Positions 5,284-50,985 are shown, counted from the first letter of the stretch. The stretch is DNA of 64,000 bases from Gemmatimonadaceae bacterium (GCA_036003045.1 DASYSS010000038.1:1-64000), one strand, 5' to 3'. Numbers and translations: made by a program. Notes: generated from the letters alone by a model not told the origin.

Positions 5284-5397
5284 AGGTGGACGGGTGGACG
5301 GGTGGACGGCACCTGGCCACTAACGGCTGAGTTCTGTTGGCTGCGTGGGTCCCGGTCCAACGGTCCACCTGTCCACCCGTCCACCTGTCCACCCGGT
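5284..5397. repeat. 8-bp tandem repeats in inverted arrangement
   Basis: The gap between the LOR/SDH gene and the outer-membrane protein holds about three units of GGTGGACG near 5284-5308. The complementary words (GTCCACCC/GTCCACCT) lie at about 5360-5396. The two clusters are opposed and could form a long hairpin on either strand, directly after the stop of the barrel gene. The same 8-bp word family recurs at 21441-21535 and 39848-39872. It may act as a terminator or REP-like element. Confidence 0.6.
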
Positions 5398-14236: not shown

Positions 14237-14364
14237 CCGCGTAAAGGTTCCTCACGACGACGTGGAGTACGGCCGGCGGGCAGAAACGTCCGTCGCGCAG
14301 AAAGCCGCCAGCGCGCCGATCGGCCACCGACCAATAGAACCCTAACGTGAACTCGGGGAATTAA

Positions 14365-14480
14365 GAAAACTCAACGCAGATGCGGCAGATCCAAACGACA
14401 ATTCCGCAGATGAAGCCTGGCTGTATCTGCGGATTCGCAGTTCAACTCTGCGGAATCGTTGTTCCCTTGTTGGTGTCGTG
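14365..14480. repeat. interspersed repeat, copy 2 of the pair
   Basis: Copy in the same orientation as 13285-13400. ATTCCGCAGA (14401-14410) and TCTGCGGAAT (14447-14456) are perfect 10-bp inverted arms. Inside them a second pair, CCGCAGA/TCTGCGG, also matches. The tail ATCGTTGTTCCCTTGTTGG matches copy 1 except for one base. The remaining intergenic sequence from 14237 shows nothing else recognisable. Confidence 0.6.
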
Positions 14481-21440: not shown

Positions 21441-21640
21441 TGGGTGGACAGGTGGACCGGTGGACGTGAGCGGGTGGACCGGTGGACCGGTGGACCGGTG
21501 GACCGGTGGACCGGTGGACCGGTGGACCGGTGAAAATGACGAGAGATCGGATGTCTGATATCAGACGTCTGACGCGAGATTCGTCCAGTCGCGTCGTCGG
21601 CTCTACCGGTCCACCGGCCTACCGGCCTACCGGCTCTTCG
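21441..21640. repeat. 8-bp tandem array with internal palindrome and inverted distal units
   Basis: About ten units of the 8-bp word GGTGGACC lie between 21441 and 21535, seven of them perfect and consecutive from about 21472. A perfect 14-bp palindrome, GTCTGATATCAGAC, follows at 21553-21566. Complementary units (CCGGTCCACCGG, CCTACCGG twice) lie at 21605-21635, where they include the stop codon region of the SDR gene. There is no spacer structure, so this is not a CRISPR array. Confidence 0.8.
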
Positions 21641-27873: not shown

Positions 27874-27944
27874 TGAACGGAGGAGTCGGTCACCGGTCTT
27901 TGGTCATGATCTCCGATCTGATATCTCTGTAGTTCCGGTGGCCG

Positions 27945-28055
<111 letters not shown>

Positions 28056-34769: not shown

Positions 34770-35779
34770 AAACCCATCCGGTCGCGGACGCCGTCCATCG
34801 TTTCGCGCGCGAGTCGGCGGCACTTGGCGGCGCCCGCGTCGAGGGCGTCGTCCACCAGCGTGGGCTTCGCCTCGAGCTCCGCGGCGCGCGTCCGAATCGG
34901 TCCCAGCTCGGTCTCCATCGATTCGGCGAGCACCTTCTTGCAGTCGATGCACCCCCAGCCGGCCGACGTGCACTGATTGTGCACGTGCTCCACGGTCGCG
35001 ATGGGACTGAACGCCTTGTGCAGATGATAGATGTTGCACACCTCGGGAGTGCCCGGGTCCGTTCGCTTGATGCGCTTCGGATCCGTCACCGCCGGGCGCA
35101 GCTTCGCCCAGATGCCGTCCGGTGTATCGAGCAGCGGCACCGTGTTGCCCATCGACTTCGACATCTTCGACTGGCCGTCGAGTCCCATGATGCGGCGCGT
35201 CGGCGTGAGCAGCGGTTTCGGTTCGGGAAAGAACTCCTCGCGCTCTTCCCCGCCGTCGAGGGTACGACGCCCGGTGAGGTGCCCGAACGCCGCGTTCCAA
35301 CGCCGCGCGATCACGCGCGAGAGCTCGAGGTGCTGCACCTGGTCTTCGCCGACGGGAACCATGTCGGCCTTGTAGAGCAGGATGTCGGCCGCTTGAAGCA
35401 CGGGATAGTTGAGGATTCCCGCGAGGATGCTCTCCTGACGCTGCGCTTTCTCCTTGAACTGTGTCTGCCGTTCCAGCTCGCCGAGCGGCGTGATCGTGTT
35501 GAAGATCCACGCCAATTCCGTGTGTTCCGGAACCTGCGACTGCACGAACACGGTGCACACGTTGGGATCGAGCCCGGCTGCCAACAACGAAAGCGCCATC
35601 GCCCCGCGACGGACCCTCAGCTGTTCCGGCTCGTACGGATGGGTGATCGCGTGGTAGTCGACGATGCAGAAAATCGACTCGTACTCGTGCTGCAGCCGTG
35701 CCCAATTCTTGACCGCGCCGAGGTAGTTTCCGATGTGGAGCTCCCCGGACGGTTGAATTCCACTGAAAATCCGTGACAT
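34766..35779 (-). CDS. trpS: tryptophanyl-tRNA synthetase
   Basis: 337 residues. Class I synthetase attaching tryptophan to tRNA-Trp. N-terminus MSRIFSGIQPSGELHIGNYL contains the HIGH-type motif, and QSKMSKSMGN the KMSKS loop. GEDQVQHLELSR is also typical. Length normal for bacteria. Its start codon lies only a few bases from the start of the divergent inositol monophosphatase, and the longest versions overlap by 7 nt. It leads the nine-gene minus-strand run. Confidence 0.96.
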   Translation of the reverse strand: MSRIFSGIQPSGELHIGNYLGAVKNWARLQHEYESIFCIVDYHAITHPYEPEQLRVRRGAMALSLLAAGLDPNVCTVFVQSQVPEHTELAWIFNTITPLGELERQTQFKEKAQRQESILAGILNYPVLQAADILLYKADMVPVGEDQVQHLELSRVIARRWNAAFGHLTGRRTLDGGEEREEFFPEPKPLLTPTRRIMGLDGQSKMSKSMGNTVPLLDTPDGIWAKLRPAVTDPKRIKRTDPGTPEVCNIYHLHKAFSPIATVEHVHNQCTSAGWGCIDCKKVLAESMETELGPIRTRAAELEAKPTLVDDALDAGAAKCRRLARETMDGVRDRMGF

Positions 35780-36582
35780 CCGCTCAACATAACAGCGCCC
35801 CTCCCCGGGTGCTGCTCGCGACCTGCGTCGCGGCCGCGGCGCGCGCCGCCGAAATCATTCGCCGCGGCGCCGAGACACGCGCCTCGCTCACCTGGGAGCG
35901 CAAGTCGGCGACGGATTTCGTCAGCGAGGTGGATCGCAACTCGGAGCAAGCGATCAACGAGATCGTCGCGTCGCGCCATCCCGACGCGCGCGTGCTCGGC
36001 GAAGAGCTCACGCCGTCCACCGACAACCGCGCCGGCCTCGTGTTCGTGGCCGATCCGCTCGACGGGACGACGAACTTTCTCCACGGGTATCCGTGGTACT
36101 CGGTGTCGATCGCCGCGCTCGTCGATGGGGAACCGATCGCCGGTGTCATTCTCAACGCCGCGACCGGTGAGCTCTTTTCGGCGACGGCCGGCGGCGGCGC
36201 ACGGCTGAGCGGCCAGCCGATCGGCGTGTCGGCGATCGAGGACCCGGCGCTCGCGCTCCTCGGCACCGGCTTTCCATTCAAGACTCCTCATTTGGTGGAT
36301 CCGTACGTGGCGTCGCTGCCCGTCGTCATGCGAGACGTCGCGGGGATTCGGCGCGCCGGCTCGGCCGCGCTCGACCTCGCCGACGTGGCGTGTGGCCGCT
36401 TCGACGGATTCTGGGAGTACTCGCTCGCGCCGTGGGACGTCGCGGCTGGAATCTTGTTGGTACGAGAGGCGGGCGGCGTCGTAACGGACGCATCCGGCGC
36501 TCCGGCGACGGTGAGCCATACGTCGATCGTCACCGGCAACCCGACGATGCACTCGTGGCTGCTCGAGCGCGTCCGCTTGTGA
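35773..36582 (+). CDS. inositol monophosphatase family protein
   Basis: Up to 269 residues from GTG 35773; GTG 35809 (257 residues) avoids the overlap with trpS and starts just before the first helix, so it may be the true start. Mg-dependent phosphatase motifs: FVSEVDRNSEQ, GEELTP, the metal motif VADPLDGTTNFLHG, and the second signature YSLAPWDVAAGILLVREAGG. Hydrolyses inositol phosphates or related sugar phosphates (SuhB-like); histidinol phosphatase activity cannot be excluded. Followed by the 250-bp repeat. Confidence 0.88.
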   Translation: MTSAQHNSAPPRVLLATCVAAAARAAEIIRRGAETRASLTWERKSATDFVSEVDRNSEQAINEIVASRHPDARVLGEELTPSTDNRAGLVFVADPLDGTTNFLHGYPWYSVSIAALVDGEPIAGVILNAATGELFSATAGGGARLSGQPIGVSAIEDPALALLGTGFPFKTPHLVDPYVASLPVVMRDVAGIRRAGSAALDLADVACGRFDGFWEYSLAPWDVAAGILLVREAGGVVTDASGAPATVSHTSIVTGNPTMHSWLLERVRL

Positions 36583-36589
36583 CGCTCCA

Positions 36590-36850
36590 GCTTGTCAACC
36601 GACCCCGTACGAGCGGATGTTCGAGGTTGAGATCTACGAACTGGTACTGCGACGATTTCGCGGAAAAACCACGGCTTTTGCGGAGTACGACTAACAGCGG
36701 CAAGTCGTTGCCGAACGACCTCGGGAAGCCTCGCCATGACACCCCGGGTTGTTCCCAAATGGCTTTTCGCCGTTGCACCTCTGCGCCCAGTGTGTCACTC
36801 TACGTCCTCTGTGTCCCTCTGCGTCCCCTGCGTAGGTGTTGCAGTTTCGT
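36590..36850 (+). repeat. ~250-bp interspersed repeat, copy A
   Basis: Contains TACGAACTGGTACTGCGACG, ATTTCGCGGAAAAACCACGG, GCGGAGTACGA and GAACGACCTCGGG. It ends in TCTGCGTCCC-type words (36780-36835). The reverse complement of 39085-39330 carries the same blocks in the same order, with about four fifths identity in the best 70 bp. An imperfect hairpin (AACGACCTCGGG with CCCGGGTTGTT) lies at about 36714-36753. Both copies share a short reading frame, YELVLxRFRGK, which may be a relic of coding sequence. Confidence 0.7.
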
Positions 36851-36859
36851 GTTTCTCTC

Positions 36860-37432
36860 ATGAGCGTTGTCCTAAGATCCGGTCTGTTGGCGGCGAGCCT
36901 CGCCGCCAGTGAGTGTGCGGTTGTGATCACGACCGGGAACCTCAACGCGTTCGTCGTTTTCGGCTTTACGTCAGGCGAAAAGCTTCTCACCATCTCGGGC
37001 GCCGACGTCAGCGTAAACCCCGCGCATCCGCGACCGTGCGCGTCTGCCGGCGGGTTCTCCGGTGGGAAGCTCGTTTCCACCCGCGTCGTTCTCTCCTCGC
37101 AAGGGGACGCGTGGGTCGGGCGTTCGATGGCGACGGCGGATGGAGACCTCGCGTTCACGCTGCGTTCGGCCGGCGTATCGAGCGGGAGGCGACTCGTGAA
37201 CGGGACGTTCTCAGGCCACGCGGTGAGCGTCGCGACGCGGGCAACGAAGCCAAGCGGCGTGCGAATCGTGTTCGACTCGCTATCGGCGAAGACGATCGAC
37301 GGCGACGGCGACGCGGCCAGCCAGGTCGCGAGCGGCAACATCGCCGGCAGCATCACGTTCGTCGACGCGAGGGGCAACGTCGCCACGTGCGATTGGGTGC
37401 AGTGGACAATGCAGCCGCTGCCGCCCGGGTGA
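36860..37432 (+). CDS. exported protein of unknown function
   Basis: 190 residues from ATG 36860. Signal-like N-terminus SGLLAASLAASECAVVI; the Cys does not sit in a good lipobox. The mature part is beta-rich and Gly/Ser-rich (VVFGFTSGEKLLTISGADVS, GDLAFTLRSAGVSSGRRLVN, VASGNIAGSITFVDARGN). It has three cysteines, two of which (PRPCASAG, ATCDWVQW) could form a disulfide. No family is recognised. It stands between the repeat and ftcD on the same strand, with a 117-bp gap before ftcD. Confidence 0.6.
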   Translation: MSVVLRSGLLAASLAASECAVVITTGNLNAFVVFGFTSGEKLLTISGADVSVNPAHPRPCASAGGFSGGKLVSTRVVLSSQGDAWVGRSMATADGDLAFTLRSAGVSSGRRLVNGTFSGHAVSVATRATKPSGVRIVFDSLSAKTIDGDGDAASQVASGNIAGSITFVDARGNVATCDWVQWTMQPLPPG

Positions 37433-37549
37433 CGCACCCCGGGGTCGGGCGGCCCTTCATATATTGAGGCACGCTGCCGGCGCGTCCTCGGCGCTGCATC
37501 GTTTCGTTCCACCCGCCTCACCATCGCCTCAACTGCCCAACCGCATTTC

Positions 37550-39073
37550 ATGAAGCTCGTCGAGTGCGTCCCGAACTTTTCCGAAGGCCGCCGGCCCGAA
37601 GTCGTCTCCGCGATCCGTGACGCGATCGCCGCCGTCGAGAGCGTCGCACTGCTCGACGTTTCGTCGGACGCGTCGCACAACCGCACCGTCGTCACGTTCG
37701 TGGTGGCCGTCGAGCATGCCGTGGATGCGGCGTTCGCCGGAATCCGCGCGGCGCGCGACCGCATCGATCTCAACTCGCACAGCGGCGAACACCCGCGTAT
37801 GGGCGCGACCGACGTCGTTCCGTTCGTTCCGCTCGAAGGCGCGACGATGGAGGACTGCATCGTCCTCGCCAAGCAGCTCGGCGAACGGGTGGGCAAGGAG
37901 TTGGAGATTCCGGTCTTCTTGTACGAGCGCGCCGCCACACGTCCGGACCGCGAAAACCTCGCCGACATCCGGCGCGGCGAGTTTGAGGGAATTCGCGACG
38001 AGATGGCGAAAGGCGCCGCCAACCGCATCCCCGACTTCGGTCCGTCGAAGATTCATCCGACCGCCGGCACCGTGGCGATCGGCGCGCGACCGTTCCTCGT
38101 CGCGTACAACGTCTACCTCGGCCCCGCGTCGAACCTGCAGGTGGCGAAAAACGTCGCGAAGGCGGTGCGCGGGTCCTCCGGCGGACTTCGCTACGTGAAG
38201 GGACTCGGCCTCGAGGTCGACGGCCAAGCGCAGGTCTCGATGAACCTCGTCGACACCGAGAAGACGCCGCTCTACCGCGCCTTCGACACGGTGAAAATGG
38301 AAGCCGAGGCGCAGGGCGTGTCGCCGACCTGGAGCGAGATCGTCGGCCTCGTTCCCGAGCGCGCGCTGTTCGAGACCGCGGCGCGCCACATCCAACTCCG
38401 CGATTTCAAGCCGGAGATCGTCCTCGAGAACAAGGTGCGCGCGGCCGTGCAAGGCGGCGAATCGGTGTCGGGCTTCATCGCATCCATCGCGTCGTCGGCG
38501 CCGACGCCCGGCGGCGGCAGCGTCGCCGCGCACGCCGGCGCGCTCGCCGCGGCGCTCGCGCAGATGGTCGCCGGACTCACCGCCGGCCGAAAAAAGTACG
38601 TCGCCGTAGACGCGGAGATGCGCGCGCTCGCCCTCGAGGCCGCGGGTCTGGTCAACACACTATCCGCGCTCGTGGCCAAGGATGCGAACGCGTACAGTGC
38701 GGTCTCCGCGGCGTACAAGCTGCCGTCCGAGCCCGCCGAAGCGCTCGCCAAACGCAAGCGCGCGATCGACGACGCTCTCATCGGCGCGGCCGAGGTGCCG
38801 CTCGAGACGGCGCGCGCGTGCGCGAAGGTCGCCGAGCTGGCCGCGACGTGCGCCACGAAGGGGAACTCGAACGCGGTCTCCGACGCCGGAGTCTCCGCGC
38901 TCCTCGCCGACGCCGCTTGTCGCAGCGCGGTCTACAACGTCCGCATCAACATCTCGGCCCTCGACGACAAACCGCGCGGCGCCGGCCTCGTCGCCGAAGC
39001 GAATCAGTTGCTGACCAAGACCCGCGCGCTCGCCGACCAGGCGACTGCTGCCGTTGAAGCGGCGATCGGTTGA
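37550..39073 (+). CDS. ftcD: glutamate formimidoyltransferase / formimidoyltetrahydrofolate cyclodeaminase
   Basis: 507-residue bifunctional folate enzyme. Residues 1-~300 are the transferase (KLVECVPNFSEGRRPEVV, LNSHSGEHPRMGATDVVPFV, FLVAYNVYLGP). Residues ~305-507 are the helical cyclodeaminase (FIASIASSAPTPGGGSVAAH, AALAQMVAGLTAGRKKY). It moves the formimino group of formiminoglutamate to tetrahydrofolate and releases ammonia, the last step of the histidine degradation branch. No hutH, hutU or hutI is close. The gene lies between inverted copies of the ~250-bp repeat. Confidence 0.93.
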   Translation: MKLVECVPNFSEGRRPEVVSAIRDAIAAVESVALLDVSSDASHNRTVVTFVVAVEHAVDAAFAGIRAARDRIDLNSHSGEHPRMGATDVVPFVPLEGATMEDCIVLAKQLGERVGKELEIPVFLYERAATRPDRENLADIRRGEFEGIRDEMAKGAANRIPDFGPSKIHPTAGTVAIGARPFLVAYNVYLGPASNLQVAKNVAKAVRGSSGGLRYVKGLGLEVDGQAQVSMNLVDTEKTPLYRAFDTVKMEAEAQGVSPTWSEIVGLVPERALFETAARHIQLRDFKPEIVLENKVRAAVQGGESVSGFIASIASSAPTPGGGSVAAHAGALAAALAQMVAGLTAGRKKYVAVDAEMRALALEAAGLVNTLSALVAKDANAYSAVSAAYKLPSEPAEALAKRKRAIDDALIGAAEVPLETARACAKVAELAATCATKGNSNAVSDAGVSALLADAACRSAVYNVRINISALDDKPRGAGLVAEANQLLTKTRALADQATAAVEAAIG

Positions 39074-39084
39074 CGACAACCGCA

Positions 39085-39330
39085 ACCGCAACTGCAACCA
39101 CTTGACGCAGAGGACGCAGAGAGGACACAGAGGACGCAGAGGAAACGGCGAAAGGGATTTGTGGAGCGACCTCGGTGTGCCACGCGTGGCGACCCGAGGT
39201 CGTTCAATAAATCCTTTCGCCGTTCGGTTGTACTCCGCGAAATCCGTGTTTTTTCCGCGAAATCGTTGCAGTACCAACTCGTAGACCTCCATCGGCCAAC
39301 ACGAACCTTCCACGCCAAGCGGACCGCGGC
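39085..39330 (-). repeat. ~250-bp interspersed repeat, copy B (inverted relative to copy A)
   Basis: On the minus strand it reads TACGAGTTGGTACTGCAACG, TTTCGCGGAAAAAACACGG, GCGGAGTACAA, GAACGACCTCGGG, then four TCTGCGTCCT/TCTGTGTCCT words. Centre: the arms CGACCTCGG (about 39167) and CCGAGGTCG (about 39194) enclose the palindrome GCCACGCGTGGC, a strong cruciform. Follows the ftcD stop, so it may also end transcription. Confidence 0.75.
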
Positions 39331-39331
39331 G

Positions 39332-39829
39332 CTAGTGACGCTTACCGTCATCCGGATGACAAGCTTCGTCGATCACGACGGCCACGGCCAATAAGAGCAC
39401 CTGGTCCTCGCTGCTGCGGATGTCGATGCCGTACGTGTCGCCCCACGCGAACCACTGTTTGGACACCGTGGCCACGACGTTCTCTCCACGCATGATCTGG
39501 TACTCGTGGTCCGTGAGGTTGCCCTCGGCGTCGAAGTTGTCGTCGACGCCGGGGACTTCGACGGTGAAGCGGTGCTTGAAGAAGGCGAGCGGCTCTTTGC
39601 GGACCGTCGCGACGACCTGGCCCTCGCGAGAGATCTCGTACGTCTTTCCCCACGACAGCACGCGCTGCTTGATGAACGCCAGCTCGTTGCCGGCCAGATC
39701 CTGAAACGACAGCTGGTCGCCGATCGTGAACGCTTTGCCGTCCACGAAATACACGTCGTTCCCGTCCTTGTCTTTGATGTAGAAGTCGTCGCCCCACGAC
39801 AGCAGCTTCTGCTTCATCATGTATTGCAT
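39332..39829 (-). CDS. LURP-one-related protein
   Basis: 165 residues. Tubby-like LURP-one barrel: MMKQKLLSWGDDFYIKDKDG, VYFVDGKAFTIGDQLSFQD, LAFIKQRVLSWGKTYEISR, and KHRFTVEVPGVDDNFDAEG. The repeated LLSWGDDF/VLSWGKTY/WFAWGDTY hairpins are typical. Bacterial members have no assigned biochemical role; the fold suggests ligand or membrane binding. No signal peptide. The C-terminal helix LLLAVAVVIDEACHPDDGK is as expected. Confidence 0.88.
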   Translation of the reverse strand: MQYMMKQKLLSWGDDFYIKDKDGNDVYFVDGKAFTIGDQLSFQDLAGNELAFIKQRVLSWGKTYEISREGQVVATVRKEPLAFFKHRFTVEVPGVDDNFDAEGNLTDHEYQIMRGENVVATVSKQWFAWGDTYGIDIRSSEDQVLLLAVAVVIDEACHPDDGKRH

Positions 39830-39847
39830 TCTTCGGTGGGCCCGGTA

Positions 39848-39872
39848 GACAAGTGGACCGGTGGACGGGTAC
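39848..39872. repeat. short 8-bp repeat run
   Basis: Two to three units of the GTGGACCG/GTGGACGG family (AAGTGGACCGGTGGACGGG) occupy the 58-bp gap between the M20 peptidase and the LURP-one gene. Same word as at 5284 and 21441. Confidence 0.5.
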
Positions 39873-39887
39873 GACGAGACGCGGCAG

Positions 39888-41291
39888 CTACTCTTTGCCG
39901 GCGACGTCCACCAGCGCGCGATAGATCATTTCCGTTCCCTGCTTGAGCGACGCGACGCTCACCTTTTCGTCGTTGCCGTGCATGCGCGTCAGCTCGTCGG
40001 CGTCGATCGGATAGGGATAGATCCCGTAGACCGGCACGCCGCGCGACCGCCACGCCCCCGCGTCGGTCCCCGCCTGAAAGAGATACGGCGTGACCTCCGC
40101 GCCCGGGAACGTCGCGTGCGCTTCCTTCTCTAACGCGCGATACAGCGCCGTTGTGTCAGGCGATTCCGGCGACGCCGCGTAGACGCGGTTCCCGATCGAA
40201 AAATCCAGCCCCGGATCGCCGGCGACCTTCTTGAGCGTCGCGACGACCGCCGCCGGGTCGCTGCCCGGAATCAACCTGAGGTTGATCATCGCCTGGGCCG
40301 AGCCGGGGATCACGTTGTTGCGGAACCCACCGTTGACGATCACGGGCGCGATCGTGTTGCGGATCAACGAGTGGAGCAGCGGATCTCGGCTCACCACGGA
40401 ATCGGCTCGCCGCGCTTTCACCGGATCGCCGCCGACGACGTCGCGGTAGTAGCCGGACATCGGCGGCGCGCTCGTCTTGGAGAGTGCGAGGAAGAACTTT
40501 CTGGTCGACGGCGAGATGGTGAGCGGCGTCTCATACGCGGAGATCTTCGCCATGCCGCGCGACAACGCGAAGATCGCGTTGTCGGGGCGCGGCATCGAGC
40601 TGTGGGTCGACGTTCCGTGCGCGGTGATCGTGAGCGGGATCGACATCTTGTCCGCGGTCGAGATGCTCACGTACCGCACGTGCCCATCGTCGCCCTTCAT
40701 GATCCATCCACCTTCGTTCAGCGCGAACTCGGCGTCGATGTCGGACCAGTTGCTCTTCGCCAGCCATTCCGTGCTGTACGGGCCACCGCTCTCTTCGTCT
40801 GCCTCCGCCAGAAAAATCACGTCGCGCGCGAGCGGCACTCTTCGCTCGGCGAGCAGCATCACCGCCCGCGCGAAGACCGCCATCCCACCCTTGAAGTCGA
40901 TCGCGCCGCGGCCGTACACGTACCCGTCCTTCTCGATTCCGTCGAACGGTTCGAGCGACCACTTCTCGCGCTCGACACCCACCACGTCGGCGTGCGCGGA
41001 GATCAACACGGGCCGCTTCGACCCATCGCCGCGAAGCCGAGCGATGAGGTGCGTCTTCGACGAATCCGGCGTCGGGACGATCTTCACGTCGAGCCCCAAC
41101 GCCCGAAAACGCGCCGCGAGAATCTCGTCGACCGCCTGCGTTCGCCCCGGCGGATTGGCCGAATTCGCGCGAATCAGCTCGCGGAGCAAAGCCGCGGTGG
41201 AATCGCCTGCCGCCTGCGCGCCGCCGGCCATCGGAAAGGACAGCGCCGCCGCGAGGATCCACGACAAACCTGTGGTACGCGCTCGAATCAT
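39888..41291 (-). CDS. exported M20-family peptidase
   Basis: 467 residues. Signal peptide MIRARTTGLSWILAAALSFP to about GGAQA. Di-zinc site: LISAHADVVGVE (His, Asp), YGRGAIDFKGGMAV (bridging Asp), FLAEADEESGG (general base Glu and ligand), and TRMHGNDEKVS (final His). A dimerisation domain lies between. Like the 11640-13253 peptidase it acts outside the cytosol on peptides or N-acyl amino acids, but the two are only distant relatives. Possible downstream partner is LURP-one, 58 bp away. Confidence 0.88.
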   Translation of the reverse strand: MIRARTTGLSWILAAALSFPMAGGAQAAGDSTAALLRELIRANSANPPGRTQAVDEILAARFRALGLDVKIVPTPDSSKTHLIARLRGDGSKRPVLISAHADVVGVEREKWSLEPFDGIEKDGYVYGRGAIDFKGGMAVFARAVMLLAERRVPLARDVIFLAEADEESGGPYSTEWLAKSNWSDIDAEFALNEGGWIMKGDDGHVRYVSISTADKMSIPLTITAHGTSTHSSMPRPDNAIFALSRGMAKISAYETPLTISPSTRKFFLALSKTSAPPMSGYYRDVVGGDPVKARRADSVVSRDPLLHSLIRNTIAPVIVNGGFRNNVIPGSAQAMINLRLIPGSDPAAVVATLKKVAGDPGLDFSIGNRVYAASPESPDTTALYRALEKEAHATFPGAEVTPYLFQAGTDAGAWRSRGVPVYGIYPYPIDADELTRMHGNDEKVSVASLKQGTEMIYRALVDVAGKE

Positions 41292-50855: not shown

Positions 50856-50917
50856 ACGGCGATGACGCTGATCGGGCGCCGGTGCGCCCCGGCGAGTTTC
50901 GATCGGCGGACGACAAA

Positions 50918-50985
50918 ACTCAACGCAGACGACACAGACTTTGAAAGGCGATCCAGCCTGCGTTCTCTGCATCGAATTTTCTCGC
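50918..50985. repeat. interspersed repeat fragment
   Basis: AAAACTCAACGCAGACGACA and CAGCCTGCGTTCTCTGCATCG match the word family of 14365-14480 (AAAACTCAACGCAGATG). It looks like a degenerate, shorter copy between the isomerase and ilvE. No gene in the 230-bp gap. Confidence 0.45.

Follow-up and report, generated by a model that had tools for sequence, protein, structure and literature searches.

Inverted repeats flanking ftcD in a Gemmatimonadaceae genome are probably separate gene-less members of a palindromic family that shares its arms with GxxExxY genes

Two repeats of about 250 bp, here called A and B, flank ftcD in opposite orientation in the 64-kb stretch of DNA that we analyzed (the window). 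We consider it probable that A and B are separate gene-less, MITE-like members of a mobile family that encodes a GxxExxY protein, a candidate nuclease. The inverted flanking of ftcD would on this reading be a coincidence, the outcome of two insertions, one into each of the gaps that border a native gene.

The repeats themselves are real. A (36629-36815, plus strand) aligns with B (39104-39289, minus strand) at 77% identity over 187 bp with the order of the blocks kept, and the inverted pair scores 136, the maximum among 299 random window pairs being 33. The predicted inverted pairing held, but neither copy is a simple repeat of about 250 bp: each is palindrome-like, with two different arms. 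Copies were then counted in the full genome (5.37 Mb, 98.5% complete; the window sits on contig C38) as matches with E up to 1, which gave 20 for A and 61 for B, and 20 repeat loci were read. A and B thus belong to a set of dozens of elements dispersed in intergenic DNA. Most elements are long, near-perfect hairpins of 130-320 nt whose arms consist of tandem 9-bp words, either R-type (CGCGGATTT, CGCGGAAAA) or C-type (CGCAGAGGA), around a common centre, GGAACGACCTCGGG...CCCGAGGTCGTTCC. The arms are combined as R/R, C/C, or, in A, B, and the element L001, as R/C. Among 26 elements whose gene context was called with a simple codon-model gene caller, 15 lie in gaps between tandem genes, nine between convergent genes, and one between divergent genes, with one ambiguous; they usually lie 10-90 bp past a stop codon. 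The excess at convergent sites is modest (9/25 elements compared with 26/123), and we rejected a strong terminator preference on this ground.

Copy A (36610-36860, plus strand; recognised by its identity to B and its fold) is gene-less, has one arm of each flavour, and lies between the stop codon of an inositol monophosphatase-family (IMPase) gene and ftcD. Its R-type arm (TGCGACGATTTCGCGGAAAAACCACGGCTTTTGCGGAGTAC; 36643-36688, plus strand) recurs in the elements L002, L003, L008, L011, and L013, and similar arms surround L251, a GxxExxY gene of the same genome. The central stem-loop of A, GAACGACCTCGGG...CCCGGGTTGTTC (36713-36754), is common to B, L001, L002, L005, L010, and L016, and its C-type arm (CTCTACGTCCTCTGTGTCCCTCTGCGTCC...; 36778-36844, plus strand) carries on the minus strand the 9-bp word CGCAGAGGA, which is also the word of the arms of the GxxExxY gene L250. 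Copy B (39085-39330, minus strand), likewise gene-less and oriented opposite to A, lies in the gap where the ftcD and LOR genes converge. It consists of a C-type arm, GACGCAGAGGACGCAGAGAGGACACAGAGGACGCAGAGG (39104-39143, plus strand), with an exact 17-mer array match, a central inverted repeat (39152-39217) whose 33-nt arms are 79% complementary around GCGACCTCGG...CCGAGGTCGTTC, and an R-type arm, GTACTCCGCGAAATCCGTGTTTTTTCCGCGAAATCGTTGCAGTACC (39230-39276, minus strand). A search of positions 35500-40500 against Rfam returned zero matches at E ≤ 1, which ruled out a known RNA family for A and B.

The DNA between the copies is native. ftcD (37550-39073, plus strand) encodes a complete FTCD_N/FTCD/FTCD_C protein, is single-copy in the source genome, and, as had been noted from the window, has no hut genes in its translated neighbourhood. 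Of 40 relatives, 38 have this gene, and the gene order trpS(-)-IMPase(+)-ftcD(+) is kept throughout the order, the IMPase gene (35773-36582, plus strand; PF00459) being itself a native neighbour in conserved synteny. From this conservation we conclude that the interior is native and not cargo. The gap between the IMPase gene and ftcD measures about 60-100 bp in two same-genus genomes (G002 and G005) and about 970 bp in the window, where it is occupied by copy A and an open reading frame (36836-37432, plus strand). The start of this frame overlaps the end of A; its product has no Pfam or NCBIfam match, so that the exported unknown protein of the original prediction is at most a putative one, and it was not found near ftcD in the relatives (L022-L050, E 1e-6). 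The original prediction had offered a transposable unit with long inverted ends, that is, a 2.7-kb composite transposon carrying ftcD and the open reading frame between A and B. The two copies do stand inverted around two genes, but the native ftcD in its conserved gene order refutes this arrangement, no transposase lies between A and B, and copies occur singly throughout the genome, a spread that the original prediction had itself named as speaking against a transposon; we regard a composite transposon as extremely improbable. The other origin it had offered, recombination between two copies of a dispersed repeat, was right about the dispersed repeat, as the genome searches show, but we saw no recombination between A and B. 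In the same-genus genome G004 (L024), ftcD is flanked on both sides by palindromes built from another word, GTCATCCTGAGCG.

The genome contains four GxxExxY genes (PF13366), and arms of three of them match palindromes. L251, with R-type arms, matches L001, L003, L012, and L019 at 75-90%, and L250, with C-type arms, matches L005, L010, L014, L018, and L020 at 80-97%; L250 lies at C38:65698-66036, only 1.7 kb beyond the end of the window. The right arm of a third gene, L252, matches window positions 14363-14411. The word of a gene-less element there (14363-14457) is CGCAGAT. This element matches the right arm of a GxxExxY gene that lies on contig C59, and a short stretch at 50915-50945 (plus strand; ACTCAACGCAGACGACACAGACTTTG) is similar to that arm as well. 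Because A and B, as R/C hybrids, fell below the reporting threshold of the search with GxxExxY arms, we link them to these genes tentatively, through the R- and C-type subfamilies. Their one R-type and one C-type arm also count against the proposed origin, as a simple deletion derivative of one gene-bearing element does not explain such a combination. L250 and L251 are gene-bearing relatives sharing terminal inverted repeats, as expected of the parents of MITEs, although what they encode is no DDE transposase. Bacteroides offers the same pairing: B. congonensis (G084) has one GxxExxY copy and at least 12 gene-less palindromes made of its two arms with a spacing of about 110 bp, and the eight of these that were read are nearly identical. 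In Gemmatirosa kalamazoonensis (G020) the 17-mer CRCAGAGGACRCAGAGG has 292 matches, and PF13366 has nine, fragments included, which makes this a suitable model genome.

The GxxExxY protein (PF13366/TIGR04256) matches a family of PD-(D/E)XK fold, and its AF2 model has a pLDDT of 93.7. The top VIA-align match of the model was the Cas4-like SSO0001 (Z 9.3), followed by Holliday junction (Hjc) resolvases at Z 6-7, a range in which values (Z < 8) are common by chance. The top Foldseek matches were mostly PD-(D/E)XK enzymes, none of them at E ≤ 0.001, and we therefore base the fold assignment on VIA-align and PF13366. E29, D69, E79, and K81 are invariant in 6/6 GxxExxY sequences, so that the protein has both the core fold and the E...D...(E)xK residues of the superfamily. 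In the literature searched, a coverage that leaves out subscription papers and most preprints, we found no report of an association between GxxExxY and repeats; one paper mentions the protein only as a neighbour of a CRISPR reverse transcriptase (PMC8934634), and another that mentions it concerns an algal virus.

Filled and empty orthologous sites are present in Bacteroides. At a site near the apparent 3' end of dnaN (assigned by eye), several species have 2-17 bp between the flanks, whereas in other species the site is filled with differently worded palindromes; between G103 and G084 the flanks of this site are 98% identical and the words differ (L330 and L331). A second site holds a palindrome of about 170 bp in G084 and 2 bp in G103, and is occupied by other words, one of them of 7 bp, in G112, G100, and G092. 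Upstream of the GxxExxY element of G084, the alignment with G112 ends at the element, and the open frame of G112 continues. No target-site duplication was readable at the filled (G084) and empty (G103) sites, whose flanks are too diverged. The differences in words, as judged from these alignments, could reflect either repeated insertion at tolerated sites or a change of the word in place. L331, L334, L339, and L353 represent one intergenic site with unrelated words in sister Bacteroides species. A plasmid collection screened for close filled/empty pairs contained only six GxxExxY records.

The architecture extends across phyla. At least 120 stretches contain the word array CRCAGAGGACRCAGAGGACRCAGAGG, and among those listed the hosts belong to Chloroflexota, Planctomycetota, Cyanobacteria, Pseudomonadota, Acidobacteriota, Myxococcota, Verrucomicrobiota, Nitrospirota, Bacteroidota, and Actinomycetota and include one Methanosarcinales archaeon. 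An inverted partner lies within 700 bp of 63 of the 120 listed arrays, a fraction that counts against the proposed element; several of the partnerless arrays fall inside long reading frames. The GxxExxY gene comes directly after the array at two loci, and at L118 the array encodes GxxExxY codons (TEDTEDTE). In 0.87 Mb around the cross-phylum arrays we found seven GxxExxY genes and no four-helix genes. Genomes chosen solely for the array contain PF13366 in 32 of 33 cases, compared with 28 of 59 Gemmatimonadota, two sets from different phyla whose rates are not strictly comparable; the lone exception, Yinghuangia soli, has its array within a 787-aa open frame. Within the Gemmatimonadota, all four genomes with the 17-mer array hold PF13366, a figure that is weak by itself.

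We measured the association of genes and arms as the best inverted match between the two 500-bp flanks of a gene (score cut-off ≥ 20), using the best-scoring members of each family and, as a control, left and right flanks taken from different genes. In other phyla, 22/24 GxxExxY loci had such arms against 3/72 mismatched pairs, a rate that is not unbiased for all GxxExxY genes because these genomes were chosen for the array. In the Gemmatimonadota the result was 11/24 against 1/72, and the 13/24 loci with no recognisable arms count against the proposed element. Four-helix (PF05635) genes behaved alike, with 20/23 loci in Gemmatimonadota and 19/27 in other phyla (mismatched pairs, 3/69 and 1/81), and their rate in the array-chosen genomes is free of array-selection bias. 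The baselines were 2/150 for random windows and 1/25 for ftcD loci. The period of the arms is 9 in 17 of 33 GxxExxY loci and 8 or 10 in 13 more, and in four-helix loci it is 7 (31/39) or 8 (8/39); the purine-rich strand forms the 5' arm in 32/33 and 32/39 loci, respectively. Mismatches between the arms, read on the gene strand, comprise 52 GU and 67 AC for GxxExxY and 48 GU and 52 AC for four-helix genes. Given this lack of a G-U excess, selection for an RNA hairpin was rejected, and pairing of the arms seems to be conserved in the DNA itself.

These data suggest that the GxxExxY gene marks the parent of a widespread class of bacterial palindromic repeats. The gene-bearing form would comprise a purine-rich 5' arm of words of about 9 bp, a GxxExxY gene of about 120 codons, and the same arm inverted. 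The GxxExxY protein may drive the spread: as a putative nuclease it would recognise the arms of its own element in their cruciform or hairpin form, and its cut, supplied in trans, could allow both gene-bearing and gene-less copies to spread, the latter perhaps building up because insertions immediately after a stop codon are tolerated. Four-helix proteins are not known nucleases and share the architecture, and the gene may therefore be a passenger of a shared mechanism. A broader proposal, which we judge evenly balanced between right and wrong, is that bacteria at large and archaea harbour elements with no transposase, integrase, or reverse transcriptase, in which one gene (GxxExxY or four-helix S23p) sits between self-complementary arms of tandem 7-10-bp words and the word evolves freely, both arms together; their gene-less forms would include many periodic intergenic palindromes of environmental genomes and the 23S rRNA intervening sequences. 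Short-period palindromic repeats of this type fill the intergenic DNA of many phyla; descriptions of them have been piecemeal, and no driver is known. Connecting each word grammar with one small gene family provides a candidate parent for them, offers a link to 23S rRNA intervening sequences, which have long lacked an explanation, and suggests for GxxExxY, so far uncharacterised, a candidate role in mobility as a nuclease that acts on cruciform arms.

We considered whether the palindromes could instead be terminators or insulators selected behind genes, with slippage expanding the arms, template switching in the hairpin homogenising them, and the GxxExxY and four-helix genes merely settling there. 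The position of the elements behind stop codons and their 15 tandem, nine convergent, and one divergent contexts agree with this, as do the Bacteroides gene ends that bear different words despite 98% identical flanks and the two palindromes of another word beside ftcD in G004. It does not explain, however, the recurrence of identical words at dozens of sites per genome, the sharing of arms between each GxxExxY copy and a palindrome set of its own, the specific pairing of arms with their own partner, or the near-identical recent copies in G084; in several species the same site also lacks a palindrome (2-17 bp), and the convergent excess is modest. We therefore think selection as terminators or insulators unlikely. 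An element acting at the RNA level, like the 23S rRNA intervening sequence, with a hairpin cut by RNase III and copied through RNA, seems to us decidedly unlikely. Four-helix intervening-sequence proteins are flanked by the same type of arm at the rates given above, and in the Coxiella intervening sequence, which RNase III excises, tandem heptamers (GACAGAT) precede the S23p gene (PMC4990558), but G-U is not favoured over A-C, contrary to what RNA pairing predicts, and the element has no reverse transcriptase.

REP/BIME/REPIN-RAYT systems also resemble these elements. Many small extragenic palindromes are present in the source genome, and PMC2817692 and PMC3116915 describe many small intergenic palindromes with few gene-bearing relatives having the same ends, the gene-less copies far outnumbering the gene. 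A profile search for the RAYT (Y1_Tnp, PF01797) gave no match in the 98.5% complete genome and was positive in 5 of 14 control genomes, and RAYT-driven REPs were rejected on this basis. In addition, the elements are 130-320 bp long with arms of tandem 9-bp words that differ freely by locus and species, and the gene between the arms encodes not a RAYT but GxxExxY, a PD-(D/E)XK protein; movement by a RAYT transposase is thus very improbable.

GxxExxY-related mobility, our preferred reading, has partial parallels in other systems. The Coxiella intervening sequence combines a single small gene with ends that pair and with tandem heptamers, an architecture that the four-helix genes match, but A and B sit between protein genes rather than in an rRNA gene, and their family is multicopy and carries GxxExxY, not S23p. 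Some insertions in the rRNA genes of CPR contain 23S_rRNA_IVP (PMC11270868). The GGGAATC heptamers of Xanthomonas, with about 70 inverted pairs per genome, are likewise tandem 7-bp words, inverted and intergenic; that paper ties them to G-quadruplexes, makes no link to mobile elements, and proposes no parent gene (PMC4692102). TAACTGA heptamers of Beggiatoaceae, Cyanobacteria, and Bacteroidetes also form short-period intergenic arrays in distant phyla with no evident transfer mechanism, but they are direct repeats, almost never inverted, and lie upstream of start codons (PMC4679880). The MITEs of Thiomargarita likewise lack a gene, have inverted repeats, and are related to a PD-(D/E)XK_2 (PF12784) gene, but differ in their nuclease family, their 10-bp direct-repeat caps, and their lack of tandem-word arms (PMC4853749).

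An inverted-repeat scan of the window and about 350 kb of relatives revealed many palindromes between genes, their arms built from words of 7-9 bp that vary by genome and locus. Three of those in the window, with words of 7-8 bp, follow the four-helix grammar: 5284-5386, with the word GGGTGGAC; 21487-21633, with the 8-bp word GGTGGACC; and 27933-28052, with the 7-bp word GACCGGT, similar words flanking the four-helix gene L254 of the same genome, which has nine PF05635 genes. In the Rhodospirillales locus L141, the downstream flank of the GxxExxY gene contains a run of the 4-mer CGAA and GCCTTCCTC-type repeats.
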